Below are positions 1 to 15,184 of a stretch of DNA of 64,000 nucleotides, one piece after another; the first letter of the stretch is position 1, and each line of letters begins with the position of its first letter. The DNA is from Plicaturopsis crispa FD-325 SS-3 (taxonomy: Eukaryota > Basidiomycota > Agaricomycetes > Amylocorticiales > Amylocorticiaceae), in the NCBI GenBank assembly GCA_000827205.1, contig KN832556.1, positions 1,275,849 to 1,339,848 on the forward strand. Reading direction: 5' to 3'. The translations under genes were made by a program, and so were the position numbers. The notes under the pieces are model-generated. The model was not told the origin of the DNA and made no database searches. It was given only the letters and a program-made list of their open reading frames with translations.

Positions 1-540
1 TGAGTAGTAGTGCGACGATGGGAGTTTGTGCTGAGACGCGACAAGTGCGGTCGACTTTGAATGCTCCCAGGCGCGGTAAGAGACGTCGAAGTGCTGAGCT
101 GCGACGGCGAATTGACCAGGTTCAAACTTGAAGGCAGAGATGCGAATGACTTGTCCATGTTTCAGCAGTTGAATAGGCGCTAGGCATGGGCGTTTCAAGG
201 TCAAGTTGAAGTTGGGGAAATCCAGGTCAAGCGAGTCCGCGGTGTAGTACTAGCCCGGAGCGGGACTCGGATACAGTGTTTGGCTCCGCCGGGCCCCCCG
301 GATCCAAACAACGCCTACGAGATGTGTAAGCACCATTCTAGGCTTCCCCCCTGTCGTTCGTATTTCGTTTTGCGGCGTCCGCAAAATGGCTCTGCGCGCC
401 GCAGTTCGCACCCGATCGCCCTCAAATAATCTTGCATCGCTCGGGATGAGATGCACGCACAACTGTTGGCGCGGCACCCGCCATCGCTTCCCATCAAATC
501 CAGGCACAAACAGAGATTTGGTCCGTGCATCTTCCGCCCG
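1..540. other. No supported gene (left edge to U2 promoter)
   Basis: I see no convincing coding exon, tRNA or repeat here. The short open frames at 250-530 lie on both strands, overlap each other and resemble no family I know. The right part must hold upstream control sequence for the U2 snRNA gene that follows. Confidence 0.5.
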
Positions 541-547
541 TATAAAA
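541..547 (+). promoter_or_regulatory. TATA box of the U2 snRNA gene
   Basis: The sequence TATAAAA lies about 27-33 nt before the predicted 5' end of the U2 RNA (about 574-576). That spacing fits an RNA polymerase II start. I saw no other clear proximal element. Confidence 0.7.
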
Positions 548-573: not shown

Positions 574-840
574 CTACCACTCTGGCCTATTGGCTTAGAT
601 CAAGTGTAGTATCTGTTCTTAATAGGTACGCGTTCTAAGCCAAAAGACGGGCGTTCGAGCCCGTTTGAAGGAGTTCTATGCTAACCGCTGTTTTCTTTGT
701 TTTTGCAGTTTAACCACTATTATGGAGGCACCGCCTCCATTCTTGGTTATCTTATTTTTGCCGCCCTTGCTCCCTGTCCTCTGCTTGCACGACGGGGACG
801 TGATGACCTTGCCGCTGCACTACCGGCTTGCGTCGTCGGG
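574..840 (+). ncRNA. U2: U2 spliceosomal snRNA gene, split by an intron
   Basis: Exon 1 (about 574-625) holds the most conserved part of U2: GATCAAGTGTAGTATCTGTT, with the branch-site-pairing GTAGTA at 605-610. The normal continuation is missing until 709. If 626-708 is removed, every expected part follows in order: stem IIa (TAATAG 620-625 pairs with CTATTA 717-722 around the loop TTTAACCA), stem IIb (TGGAGGC 723-729 with GCCTCCA 733-739), an Sm site ATTTTTG (754-760), stem III (GTCCTC 775-780 with GGGGAC 794-799) and stem-loop IV (802-837, loop CTGCACTAC at 815-823, close to the U2B'' loop). The spliced length is about 184 nt; human U2 is 188. The exact 5' and 3' ends are inferred. U2 base-pairs with the intron branch site and with U6 in the spliceosome. 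Confidence 0.9.
626..708 (+). other. Spliceosomal (mRNA-type) intron inside U2 snRNA
   Basis: This 83-nt segment starts GTACGC and ends TTTTTGCAG. It carries a branch sequence GCTAACC (branch A at 684, 24 nt before the acceptor) and a U-rich tract. These are the same signals used by the protein-gene introns across the window. It sits exactly between the 5' strand of stem IIa and its loop. The middle holds a hairpin, ACGGGC at 647-652 pairing with GCCCGT at 659-664. The segment TCTAAGCCAA (634-643) is a perfect complement of exon 1 at 590-599. Confidence 0.88.
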
Positions 841-1656
841 GGATCTCCCTTCTTTTCTTTGCTGCGCGCGTCATTCCTGTCATTCGACCTGGAAGAAACG
901 CGTAGCAAATGAAGTTAGGGTGTCCTGTTGTGCGCATGTCGTTCCTCTGTCTGTTAGCCGCCAGTGCGACAACGTATGGGATATATTCTGTGAGTGTATA
1001 ACTTACTATGGATACGTTATGTACAGTCGGTACGCAGGGGCTGACCATGACCTTTCTAATGGTACAGCATAATACATATCCTTTGACGGTGTAGCCTGAC
1101 TACGTCCCTGGGACCATCTGTACCGTCGCCGTTGCCTTCGGATACAGGTGTATCTCTCACAGATGTCGGCCCACCGCCGTGCTGGCCCGTTGCAGGTTCA
1201 CCGTCGGAGTGGACTCGAATGCCATGTCGCACCAGCCTCTTGCGGATGTTATTCAGTACTTGGTCTCGCTAGCCCCGTCGTGCATCCATGACGCCTCCAA
1301 TTTTTTATGTCAAATTTTCGATATATCAGTATACTGAGAAGCATATGCATGGCCGTCGCGCGGTGCGTACGACATATTACACTTCATCTAAGCCAAGGGA
1401 CCACAGTCTTGCTAAGTCGCCTCCTCATGTTGAGTAACAAATGCAAATCACTTACTACTTACTGGTATTAGGAGCATGGGAGGGTTGTGCGCAGGCAAGG
1501 GCAAGTACCTAGAATCGGCGAGAATCCTGAGTCCTGCAGCAGGACAGATGCGACATAGTGCAAATATTATAATGAGCCGTACAACAAAACTCCATGTCCG
1601 TGCAGAGAATGACCGAAACGAAACAATTGCAATACAGCGAAAGAAAATAAAAACAC
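841..1656. other. Intergenic, nothing recognised
   Basis: This is the gap between the U2 3' end and the stop codon of the next gene on the opposite strand. The open frame at 665-1072 overlaps the U2 RNA and is not a credible protein. I saw no repeat or tRNA here. Confidence 0.5.
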
Positions 1657-3896
1657 TCAAGCCTTCCGTGCCCAGCTTTTACGCCACCCTACAACCTTAG
1701 CCACGAGCCGCCCAACACTACCGCGCTCCAGCCGCCCGGCGACGCTTCCCCTCTTAGCGTTCCCGCGCCTACTCGCCCGCGGCCTATCCTCTGGCTCGGG
1801 TGTCACCTCCTCCCAGAAGCTCTTCATCCCATTGTGCTCCGCCGTCCCTTGCCGGTGCCCATAGCTCATAGCAGACCGGTGCCCCAAGCGCGGAGACAGC
1901 GGCGTGCCGTCCTCGGTGAGCCGCGGGGACGCCATCATGGCCTCGGTGTTGTTGCGGCGGTGCCGCCCGGTCGCTGCACGGTCGGCCACCGGCTTGTCGA
2001 GGAAGAGGAACGGCGCGGAGAGCATCCGCGGGTCAGTGCGCGCGGGAAAGGCCGACGGGGGCGGCGTTTGCTGGATGGGCAGCGCGCGTATGCGGGAGGG
2101 CACGGACGAAGGGCACAGCGTGGGCGCGGAGATGCGTGGACGGATCGACCGCGTTTGGGTATCGGTCCCCGAGCGCGTAGGCATGTCTATCCTGAAAGAC
2201 AGCCGGGAAGGCGCAGTGGGACGGGCCAAGGTGTCGACGGATTGGCTCCCTGCGACATGCCGCGCGATGGTGCTACCCGGCCCATGTCCTTTCAGCTTCG
2301 CCATGCTCTCCTCGAGCCGTGCGAGCTGCGGCATGGGCAGCGGCATCAACGTCTTTGGCCGTGCTTTCGCGGTTCCATATCCCGGAACTGCACCGTTGGA
2401 TGAGGAGAGCGCAGACCATGCCCTTTCGTAGTCGGGCCGCTCCATGAACGCAGCCTGCACGGGACGAACGCCTGTTCCGGGAAGTGACACCAGGGAAGCA
2501 GACGCTTGCAGCTTACGGGCGTCGTCCAAGCTTCGCTCGCCCGTCTCGTTGCACAGAATGCCTACCAAGCCACGGTCACGGCGGTGCCGAATCTCTGCTT
2601 CGGAGCAAGTCTTGCGCAGCACCGGCGCAACGCGCGAGTCGTCGATTGGCTCGTATATCGTGGCCCTGTTGCACAGCGAGTCCGAGTAGTGCGAACCGTC
2701 TGTAGACGCCAAAGTCTGTGTCTCTCCGTCCTCGGCACGGAGCGCACGGAGCACCTGCGACACGTCGTCGTCAGCTGCAATGTCTCCGTCTTCACTCCCC
2801 CGGTTTTCGTCACCGTCCGCGGATCCCCGGCCATACAAAGACGGGGACAGCGAGGCCTCGCCTTCAGCCTCCCAGGAGAAATCACCTTCGCCGTCTTCAG
2901 TGTCCCAGTACCGGCTCTCGTTGTCCGCATTTACAGCCGATGCGCTGTCGATTGTTTCGAGCCCCAGTCCACGCGTGGGTTCCGTAACCTTTCCCCATCG
3001 CCTCCTCAGGAACTCACGCACTGCGCTCGTCTCTGCGTCCGAGAAAAGCAACAATGGTGATCCAGGGGCATCCGGACTCGTAAGGGTTGTCGACGGCGGC
3101 TGCGGGAATTCCAACTGAAGTGCCGTGCTGGAGTCAAAAGTGGACGACATAGACGCCGACGAAGAGGTGAGCGGGCTCAAGAGGGCAGCTGGAGTCTGCG
3201 GTGACTCAGTAGCGTCATCGTCGAGCAATGAGGGTAGGAACGATGTCCGTCGTTCACGGGCGCGCGCCTTACTGTCAGGCTCAGTCTCGAGGGTGAACCC
3301 GTGCCGACGAGATTTGAAATCCGTCTTCTCATGCTGGACCTCTTCGTTCCAAGATGGAACGACGGCAGTCTTTTGGGGACGCGCATATGGGTTCGCTAGA
3401 ACAGGGGGCGGAGGTGGAGCACGCGACGGAATTTTGGGTCGCGTAGTCGTAGGAAAGGACGTGCGCGTGCGCAAGCTTTTCGAGGGTTCATATGGCAGGG
3501 GTCCACTTATATATCGGCTAGGTGCAGGTTCTGGAGTCGCATCTGAAAAGTTTTGTTCCGCCAAGCTTTCGGACAAGATTAAAACGCGTAGAAGTGGATA
3601 ATAAGAACGAGGCAAACGTACTTGCAAAACGAATTCGACGAGAGTGGTGAGACAAGGGGCGGTATCTGCGGCGCGCCATTGGATATACCCAAGCTTAGAT
3701 TTGGAACGCTTCCATACGGGGCGATAACGCGCGCTGCACGGTTATTGCCTTTGCGTTGATTCAGCGGAAGTGATGGCAGAGGTGGAGACGGCGTGGGTTG
3801 TGCAGACGCGTGTTTGGAGAAAAGTGATGTGCGCGGCAACGAAAAGGGCAAGGCAGATTTGCGACGCGACGGCGGTTTCGATTTCGTTGAGAACAT
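1657..3896 (-). CDS. Unrecognised Ser/Pro-rich protein, about 727 aa
   Basis: Two exons: 3896-3622 and 3565-1657, joined across a 56-nt intron (donor GTACGT, acceptor AAAG, phase 2), giving 727 residues. The start at 3896 gives a strongly basic N-terminus (MFSTKSKPPSRRKSALPF). Most of the protein is low-complexity Ser/Pro/Arg sequence with acidic patches in the middle. One more ordered piece contains AVREFLRRRWGKVTEP. The extreme C-terminus (GRLVAKVVGWRKSWARKA) would form a short basic amphipathic helix. I recognise no domain. It may be a largely disordered regulatory or scaffold protein, but that is inference from composition only. Confidence 0.7.
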
Positions 3897-13052: not shown

Positions 13053-15184
13053 TTATACCAACATGCCGCTGTAAGATAATAAACGTGCAATCAGTTCATA
13101 TACAAAACACTGGGAGAGGTTGAGATAGTCATGGAACGGGAGACTCACGCAATACCAGCGGTTTGGAGGGTCGAGATAAAGCCACAGATCATGGCGGACA
13201 TCGATATGCGGACGATGATCTTGCCGCGGGAGGGTGCGAGCGCGCTGAGCACACCGATCTGGATACCGAGCGAGCTGATGTTTGCGAATCCGCAGAGCGC
13301 GTACGACGCGATGGTGTACGCGCGCGGGGTCAGCGGGTTGCCAGAGGCCATAAGAGCCTGCAACTCTAGGTACGCAGAGAACTCGTTCGCGATGAGCTTC
13401 GTGGCGAGGAGCTGGGATACCCGGAGGATCTCTGCGCGAGGGACGCCGAGGAAAAAGGTGACGGGGTAGAAAATGTACCCAACGATAAGCTGCAGCGTGA
13501 GGTGGTGGATGCCGAAGCCGTGACCGATCCATGTAAGGAGTCCGTTGATGGTGGCGACGAGTGCGAGGATGGTGAGCACGTTTCCGAGGATCTGAGCGGC
13601 GACGACAAGACCGAAGATAGCGCCCTGTGAGAACGCGTGCAGAGCGTTGGCCGGGGGATTCTTCTCGGCAGCGCCGCGGTCGATGACGACCTGCCCGCGA
13701 GTAACGGGCTCTTCCGTCTCCGGCATGCGCATCTTCGATATGGAGATGGATGCAGGAATGGACATGACGGAGGAGGTGATGAGATTCTGCGGGGGTACGC
13801 CGAGGGCGATGTATGCGCTGAGCACGGATCCGGCAATAGTGGAGAAACCGGAGGTCATCGTAAGATGGAGCTCAGACTCGGTCATCAGGTCGACGTAAGG
13901 CTTGACGAGGCAAGCGGATTCACCCTGGCCAATCCAGGGGGAAGAGGCAGCGACAACAGCCTCGGCACCGGAAACGTTCATGAGCTTGAAAAACAACCAA
14001 GCGCTACCGGTAGAATGTAAGAACGCTGATAAATGGAAGGCAGAACGTGACGTACAAGTTCTTGATAACCCATTGCATCGCACCGAGATAGTACATCATC
14101 TGGATGAATGCAATGAAGAAAACAATACACGACAACTAAAAGCCGAGAGGTTAGTTAACAACAAATCAACCACGGGTCAAAATACGGACAGTGTTAACGA
14201 AAAACCAGTGCTTTGCGATAGTGTCCGCGTCAAAGAAGAACGCGGCTCCCACGAGACCTTGGTTCAAGAAGTCGGAAGCAAGGGTGGCAATCCAGTGGAA
14301 GATCGAGAAACCCGCGCCGGACTTGAGGACAAAGAGAGCAATGGCTTGCTGGATGAACAAGCCGACGATGACGGTGGGCCTACGCGGATAGAGTTCCTGT
14401 GTTACTGCACGCAACATGAAAAATCAATGCGTGGACGAACCAGGGGATCTGGTTGCGTTTCGACGAAAAGGCCCAGAAACAGGTTTGGAATATCAAGAGA
14501 CCAAGGACGGAGATGGCGCGGTCTCCGTAACCAGTGTTCTGCGAAAAGTCGAGCGTAAGCAATGCCTTCCTTGTATGTTTTAGAGGCCGGTAGAAAACTT
14601 ACACCTTGCAGCGGGAATCCAAAGGCAGAGCCAAAGACAATTCCAAGGAGGCATAGCCAGCCGATAGACAGCCTGACCATGTAAGGAAGGCTGTACCAAG
14701 GCCTCTGGACAAGAGGGCCCCAGACGGCCTCGACCGGGCGGGTCACTACACGGTTGGGGATGAACCGGAAGGCGATAACCCTGCAAGGAGCAAAATCAAA
14801 TTCGATTGTTAGAAATTGATATCGACGAAAAAACCGTCGCGATACGCACAAGATGAAAAACCACGCCCAAAGGGTTTGGACGATCCATCTATGCCGAGTA
14901 GCCTTGAGCACAGTGGCAGAGATCCACCACCCGAGGATGACTGCCGCGAGACCAGCCAAAATGAATGGCCTGAACTTGGCGTAAATTTCTTTACGGTGTG
15001 CGCGCGCTGCCTCGACCTCCTCCGTGTCCTTCGCCTCCTCCTGGGCTAGCAACACCTCTGGGTCAACCGCGTGCCGGTTTTTTTCCTTCTCGAATGACTC
15101 GGTCGACCGGGTGGCCTTGCGCTGAACAGCAGCGTGTTCAGCGTCCGGAGCGTGGCCAGCTTCGTATACCAGTGAGTTCGACAT
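13053..15184 (-). CDS. Concentrative nucleoside transporter (CNT family)
   Basis: Seven exons: 15184-14850, 14780-14603, 14538-14441, 14379-14190, 14135-14056, 14003-13149 and 13068-13053, giving 583 aa with all phases consistent. A hydrophilic N-terminus is followed by many membrane spans. The CNT signature appears as [20 protein letters not shown] and as [18 protein letters not shown]; both regions are involved in nucleoside and cation binding in this family. It should move nucleosides across the plasma membrane by cation symport. The last coding exon is only 16 nt and gives the ending IAGMLV. Without that splice the frame stops right after GIA. Confidence 0.9.

Follow-up and report, generated by a model that had tools for sequence, protein, structure and literature searches.

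A U2 snRNA gene with a probable spliceosomal intron at the stem IIa/loop border, interrupted alike in every U2 copy found in a mushroom-class fungus

One U2 snRNA gene occupies positions 574-845 (+) of the window, by which we mean the whole 64-kb stretch of DNA analysed here. Scanning with cmscan assigned it to Rfam family RF00004 at 90.2 bits (the family's gathering score is 46), and U2 was the sole Rfam match in the 64 kb, both at the gathering threshold and at E up to 0.1. The alignment covers the U2 model completely (1-192 of 192) and includes an unmodelled block in stem-loop IIa, and all hallmarks of U2 are present: GUAGUA, stem-loop I, IIa, IIb, the Sm site, III and IV. This full-length match bears out the gene identity proposed in a preliminary description of the same DNA. 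The locus comprises the following features, given in window coordinates:

518..537 (+): conserved upstream element TTGGTCCGTGCATCTTCCGC (read by eye, U2 and U4 loci)
541..547 (+): TATA box TATAAAA, its first base 33 bases upstream of U2 nt 1 (sequence)
574..625 (+): U2 exon 1, 52 nt (Rfam RF00004, paralogue alignment)
about 584-595 (+): exon 1, stem-loop I (Rfam RF00004)
606-611 (+): exon 1, branch-site recognition sequence GTAGTA (Rfam RF00004)
620-625 (+): exon 1, 5' strand of stem IIa (Rfam RF00004)
626..708 (+): intron, 83 nt, with donor GTACGC, pyrimidine tract and acceptor TTTTTGCAG (sequence, paralogue loci)
634..646 (+): antisense arm TCTAAGCCAAAAG in the intron, complementary to majority U2 nt 14-26, that is, stem-loop I (intron alignment, fold predictions)
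647..664 (+): intron hairpin ACGGGC-GTTCGA-GCCCGT (alignment, fold)
681-685 (+): intron branch motif CTAAC (sequence)
709..845 (+): U2 exon 2, ending at about 840-845 (Rfam alignment)
717-722 (+): exon 2, 3' strand of stem IIa (Rfam alignment, stem count over six genes)
754-760 (+): exon 2, Sm site ATTTTTG (Rfam alignment)
771-798 (+): exon 2, stem III (Rfam alignment, stem count over six genes)
within 709..845 (+): exon 2 also holds stem IIb and stem-loop IV (Rfam alignment)
858..909 (+): long hairpin downstream of U2 (RNAfold)

The intron borders claimed in the preliminary description, 626-708 with GTACGC, CTAAC and TTTTTGCAG, are all present in the sequence, and the perfect 6-bp stem IIa that it expected upon removal of this segment was recovered by direct count: once the exons are joined, TAATAG and CTATTA pair at 6/6 positions. 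Two details shift slightly. The joined U2 measures about 185 nt instead of about 184, and exon 1, said to end inside stem IIa, in fact ends on the last base of the IIa 5' strand, at the stem/loop border.

The genome assembly (33.2 Mb, 49 contigs) contains further copies of the gene. A genome-wide U2 covariance search scored 46 of 257 candidates, so that its counts are lower bounds, and returned at least eight U2 matches, six of them over the family cut-off. These six (L001-L006, of which L003 is the window copy) are full, structurally intact U2 genes; L007 and L008 comprise the promoter and U2 nt 1-39 only, followed by foreign sequence. An exon-1 pattern allowing up to 3 mismatches gave 11 matches, corresponding to the eight U2 loci and three degenerate antisense fragments, and an exon-2 pattern of the same tolerance gave eight: the six genes, the 3' part of L008 and, at a distance of 59 kb from L007, one further 3' part. 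An intron sits at the identical position ahead of all eight exon-2 copies, with GT directly after TAG and CAG at its end, which argues against a chance origin of the segment. A spliced-junction pattern (up to 3 mismatches) had no match in the 33.2-Mb assembly, and this pattern thus revealed no processed, intronless U2 copy; the uninterrupted gene elsewhere in the genome that the preliminary description had considered did not emerge. Between the U2 genes, exons are 87-99.5% identical and introns 47-92%, counting aligned columns only. Since the copies are spread over several contigs and both strands and share promoter elements, they probably multiplied as DNA and not via spliced RNA. A scan of viral contigs for the U2 exon found no match.

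We compared the eight introns with one another. The window intron is 83 nt long, those of L001, L002, L004, L005 and L006 measure 64, 69, 82, 81 and 83 nt, and those of the two broken U2 loci 76 and 79 nt. Their GT...CAG ends are invariant (8/8), and every donor carries G at +5, the eight donors reading GTACGC, GTGAGC, GTTAGC, GTACGT, GTGCGA, GTATGC, GTACGC and GTGTGC. An aligned branch motif CTNAC occurs in 7/8 introns, L004 having CTGAA; this motif lies 16-24 nt from the intron end in those seven, and the branch A of the window copy is 24 nt before the last intron base. For comparison within the same DNA we took the window's CNT transporter gene, in which tblastn searches with five homologues placed five introns. 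Read by eye, the donors of these introns are GTGCGT, GTAAGT, GTTCGT, GTCCGT and GTACGT. With GTNNGT donors, CTNAC in 4/5 (by eye) and YAG ends, the CNT introns resemble the U2 introns in overall architecture. The two sets differ at donor position +6, where T is found in one of eight U2 introns versus five of five CNT introns (Fisher p = 0.005, from small, non-independent samples), a deviation that may reflect a slightly weak donor in the U2 introns. Other intron classes were considered. The U12-type donor consensus is ATATCC or GTATCC, and none of the eight donors has either sequence, which speaks against a U12-type intron. At E up to 0.1 the window gives no Rfam match except U2, and hence none to a group I or II self-splicing intron. 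Among the best 120 of 2283 matches, the transporter fragment encoded at 13145-14083 (-) finds its best named relatives, at 83-85% identity, in Amanita, Mycena, Lyophyllum, Fomitiporia and Jaapia, which points to an Agaricomycete as the source.

Several features point to functional genes. The promoter core GGTCCGTGC is found in seven of the eight loci that have a U2 5' end (L004 has GGCCCGTGC) and also ahead of both U4 genes, and TATAAA stands at the corresponding place in all eight. All positions of stems IIa, IIb and IIc are paired in each of the six genes (6/6), and stem III has a single unpaired cell. L004 shows a compensatory double change in stem IIa, from A-U to U-A, whose two halves lie on opposite sides of the intron, and stem III carries one such double change, in L004 and L006. 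RNAfold predicts a long downstream hairpin in all six genes despite differing arm sequences, and the 80-nt downstream regions fold at -30.8 to -39.2 kcal/mol. In yeast U2, such downstream hairpins serve as RNase III processing sites, and the hairpins found here probably function as RNase III-type signals for 3'-end processing. The upstream regions of L029-L033 and L020-L025, read alongside, reveal snRNA promoters of two types: U2 and U4 have GGTCCGTGC and a TATA-like box, and U5 and U6 have CCCGTGGCTCAAACAAAATGCA or close variants.

The other spliceosomal RNAs were searched for in the same assembly. All six U6 genes over the cut-off (of nine Rfam matches) are uninterrupted, as are 3/3 U5 and 2/2 U4 genes over the cut-off. 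Genome-wide, the Rfam models of U1 and of fungal U3 had no matches, and in both cases the control was likewise without a match. For U1, a TATA-plus-5'-end pattern also had none; the 5'-end pattern by itself matched nine times versus five for its reversed control, and none of the nine loci was an Rfam U1 at E up to 1. Either interruption by introns or insensitivity of the models is a possible reason for the absence of U1 and U3 from the Rfam matches.

Outside the splice sites, the best-conserved intron window is a 10-nt core of the antisense arm, AAGCCAAAAG, at 637-646 (columns 14-23 of the eight-intron alignment). Identity is 0.88 in this window, 0.67 in the adjacent hairpin and 0.49 in the remaining intron, and none of 5000 random ten-column sets reached 0.88, a result that was the same when only five lineages were kept. 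AAGCCAAAAG can pair with U2 nt 14-23, and in some copies the bases flanking it extend this complementarity to nt 14-26. Even the shortened intron of L001 keeps the block, as AGCCA..AG; the hairpin is imperfect there and absent from L002. When each intron was compared with its own exon 1, dinucleotide shuffling (2000 shuffles per intron) equalled or bettered the best complementary segment 0 times in L002, once in L005 and 0 times in L006. For the window copy the best segment scored 10, with 16/2000 shuffles as good, and for L004 it scored 7, with 544/2000 as good, against 12-13.6; in L001 the best segment is a different one (score 7.2, 300/2000). Stem-loop I has an altered loop in the window copy and in L004, and neither copy's own intron shows a corresponding change; both introns still match majority U2 across 13 nt. 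Common ancestry links the six introns, which are not independent tests. Allowing one mismatch, the core occurs 11 times in the window versus 3.4 expected, two of them exact, and so is not unique to the intron. CCAATAG, which complements the loop of the window copy, is present in the L045 intron, yet this is another locus.

Structure predictions place this arm against stem-loop I. RNAalifold, given six exon-1-plus-intron sequences and no structure, returned a helix between U2 nt 17-26 and the arm, the adjacent hairpin, and the donor paired with U2 nt 36-44. In whole-precursor ensembles, the probability that nt 17-24 pair with the intron was 0.67, 1.00, 0.96, 0.84, 0.83 and 1.00 for L001-L006; with shuffled introns the means were 0.08, 0.02, 0.06, 0.28, 0.06 and 0.09, and 3, 0, 0, 5, 0 and 0 of 100 shuffles reached the real value. 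The probability of native stem-loop I falls to 0-0.18 in the six predicted precursors and, after joining, is 0.99, 0.27, 0.99, 0.68, 1.00 and 0.99. For the spliced form, RNAfold prefers stem IIc over IIa in 5/6 genes, IIa being favoured only in L002. Exon 1 and intron of the window copy together fold 2.4 sd better than shuffles, 3/200 of which were as good. A pair count found no covariation in the exon-intron helix, where exon 1 hardly varies, and weak covariation in the intron hairpin. Shuffling the 3' letters of the helix equalled the data for paired cells in 500/500 trials; sliding the 3' partners by 1-3 columns lowered paired cells from 86% to 22-50%.

Taken together, the sequence evidence makes it very probable that this is a functional U2 gene, that its primary transcript can become U2 only once an 83-nt spliceosomal intron of U2 type (GT-AG) has been removed, and that the same applies to every U2 gene found; splicing of the intron is, by itself, likewise very probable. 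As every U2 gene found is interrupted, the fungus would depend on pre-existing spliceosomes for new U2, a closed positive loop. Transcription would start from the conserved TATA plus GGTCCGTGC promoter common to U4, and the long hairpin predicted downstream would set the 3' end in the manner of an RNase III substrate. In the precursor, the antisense arm is predicted to pair with U2 nt 14-26 and so to displace stem-loop I. The spliceosome, guided by the signals at both borders, would then excise the intron at the stem IIa/loop border, and the joined RNA would adopt the U2 fold, for which the Rfam model and the compensatory changes argue. Arm pairing might render unspliced U2 unusable, a role to which we give somewhat less than even odds. 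More tentatively still, the antisense arm, carried by the introns of all the U2 genes, could act as a built-in lock that holds stem-loop I in a dead fold. Only RNA that a working spliceosome has already processed could then become U2, and the capacity of the spliceosome would feed back on U2 supply; under the same reading, the second predicted hairpin would hold the donor against the branch-recognition strand.

The main rival to such a lock is neutral persistence of an old intron, and both share the claim of obligatory U2 splicing. The intron would on this account be spliced yet be mere baggage, fixed before the copies multiplied, and the AAGCCAAAAG block and hairpin would be remnants with no role; we hold this to be a serious contender, just short of an even chance. 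The U2 copies are clearly duplicates of one another and the exon-intron helix lacks covariation support, both as neutrality would have it, but the block retains 0.88 identity where most of the intron has diverged, persists even in the shortened L001, and in L002, L005 and L006 complements its own exon to a degree that shuffles almost never match (0, 1 and 0 of 2000). For the introns of fungal U3, the authors of PMC5832005 doubt that the intron affects U3 function, as even paralogues differ in having it, which favours neutrality here.

Retention of the 83-nt segment in mature U2 as an expansion of loop IIa would be structurally tolerable at the stem/loop border, and budding-yeast U2 does retain large expansions; it is nevertheless very unlikely here, since GT and CAG are invariant in 8/8 copies and CTNAC keeps its 16-24 nt distance in 7/8 whilst the introns vary in length (64-83 nt) and over most of their remaining sequence, and since the segment displaces stem-loop I in the predicted precursor. 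That all U2 loci found are pseudogenes, with an intronless U2 hidden in an assembly gap, is scarcely credible: the assembly is in 49 contigs with missing parts and two further U2 loci are broken, but six copies keep promoter, Sm site, compensated stems and 3' hairpin, and not one spliced-junction sequence with up to 3 mismatches exists in the assembly. A further candidate role for the hairpin is that of a Pol III B box, by which the U2 genes would use an internal intron promoter. The U6 intron of fission yeast carries such a promoter, GTTCGAGCCC (653-662) fits a tRNA B-box consensus, GTTCRAGCC recurs in 7/8 introns, and exon 1 holds TGGCTTAG, which resembles an A box. Against this, T runs of 5-7 in 7/8 introns and TTTTT in the Sm site are of the kind that stops Pol III, the promoter is common to U4 and not U6, L002 is without the B-box motif, and in the 64 kb the pattern is about as frequent as chance predicts (4 found versus 4.7 expected). 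We therefore regard an internal promoter as highly improbable; a tRNA search of the window found none.

A U2 intron has been met before, in Rhodotorula hasegawae, a member of the Pucciniomycotina and thus distant from the Agaricomycetes. Its intron is reportedly 60 bp, a length similar to the present ones, and is said to follow the branch-recognition domain directly, whereas the intron described here follows nt 52 at the stem IIa/loop border. The U6 of R. hasegawae is also said to have introns, in contrast to the six intronless U6 genes over the cut-off in this genome. PMC2586383 cites the R. hasegawae U2 intron as mRNA-type (Takahashi et al. 1993, Mol Cell Biol 13:5613), which makes it, like the one here, a spliceosomal intron within a basidiomycete U2. 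The U2 intron itself is accordingly of a known but rare kind, with one precedent cited; among titles and the openings of abstracts, in a search covering little of the subscription literature, no report of a further U2 intron was found. As far as the accessible portion of PMC5832005 goes, frequent interruption is known from just two small structured RNAs, U3 and U6, and U2 is unnamed. According to that portion, U3 introns are widespread among Basidiomycota, nearly all of them being located in the 5' stem-loop, and these U3 and U6 introns resemble the U2 introns described here in being ordinary spliceosomal introns in genes for small structured RNAs. Fungal U3 paralogues occur with or without an intron (PMC5832005, same portion), whereas all U2 copies found here have one. 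The state in which all copies are interrupted, and the antisense arm, look new. If obligatory splicing holds, a mushroom-class fungus makes U2 only through U2, across the whole gene family, and the RNA core of the splicing machine strictly requires that machine for its own production. The family would then offer a natural system for studying the origin and the persistence of snRNA introns. The arm would be a testable example of quality control at the RNA level, with splicing itself switching the precursor into its active fold.

The two broken U2 loci bear on a different kind of insertion. Utopia and Keno are U2-targeting non-LTR retrotransposons, and PMC4640811 reports their target as U2 nt 39, the place at which both broken loci are cut. 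The intron is found 13 nt beyond this site, and its length of 64-83 nt and its splice signals show that it is not an insertion of Utopia/Keno type. At L037 2232-4950 (contig C8; also L008 and L041), a U2 gene has an insert of about 2.2 kb after nt 39 and keeps its intron; no open stretch in the insert exceeds 152 aa. Close to the Sm site, the C8 locus is broken again by another insert, of about 220 nt, with a 7-base repeat on both flanks, and repeats of 6-7 bases are reported for Dada transposons. On contig C4, U2 nt 1-39 (L007, L036 7391-7545 (-)) and the 3' part with the intron (L045 1531-1609 (-)) are 59 kb apart in the same orientation, and the examined DNA between them looks ordinary and gene-bearing. 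The first 38 bases after nt 39 in L007 are common to the C8 insert. Inside the inserts, the U2 5' end reappears in the same orientation as short copies (like CCACTCTGGCCTTTTG), at L008 1674-1889, 2217-2254 and 2367-2380, at L007 1695-1710, and in L045 upstream of the U2 part. Degenerate antisense copies of U2 nt 6-39 or about 12-38 lie at 1374-1407 (-) in the window and at 2310-2336 and 2394-2419 (-) in L005, on the opposite strand 0.5-0.65 kb beyond the ends of two U2 genes, and overlap the U2 stretch matched by the intron's antisense arm.
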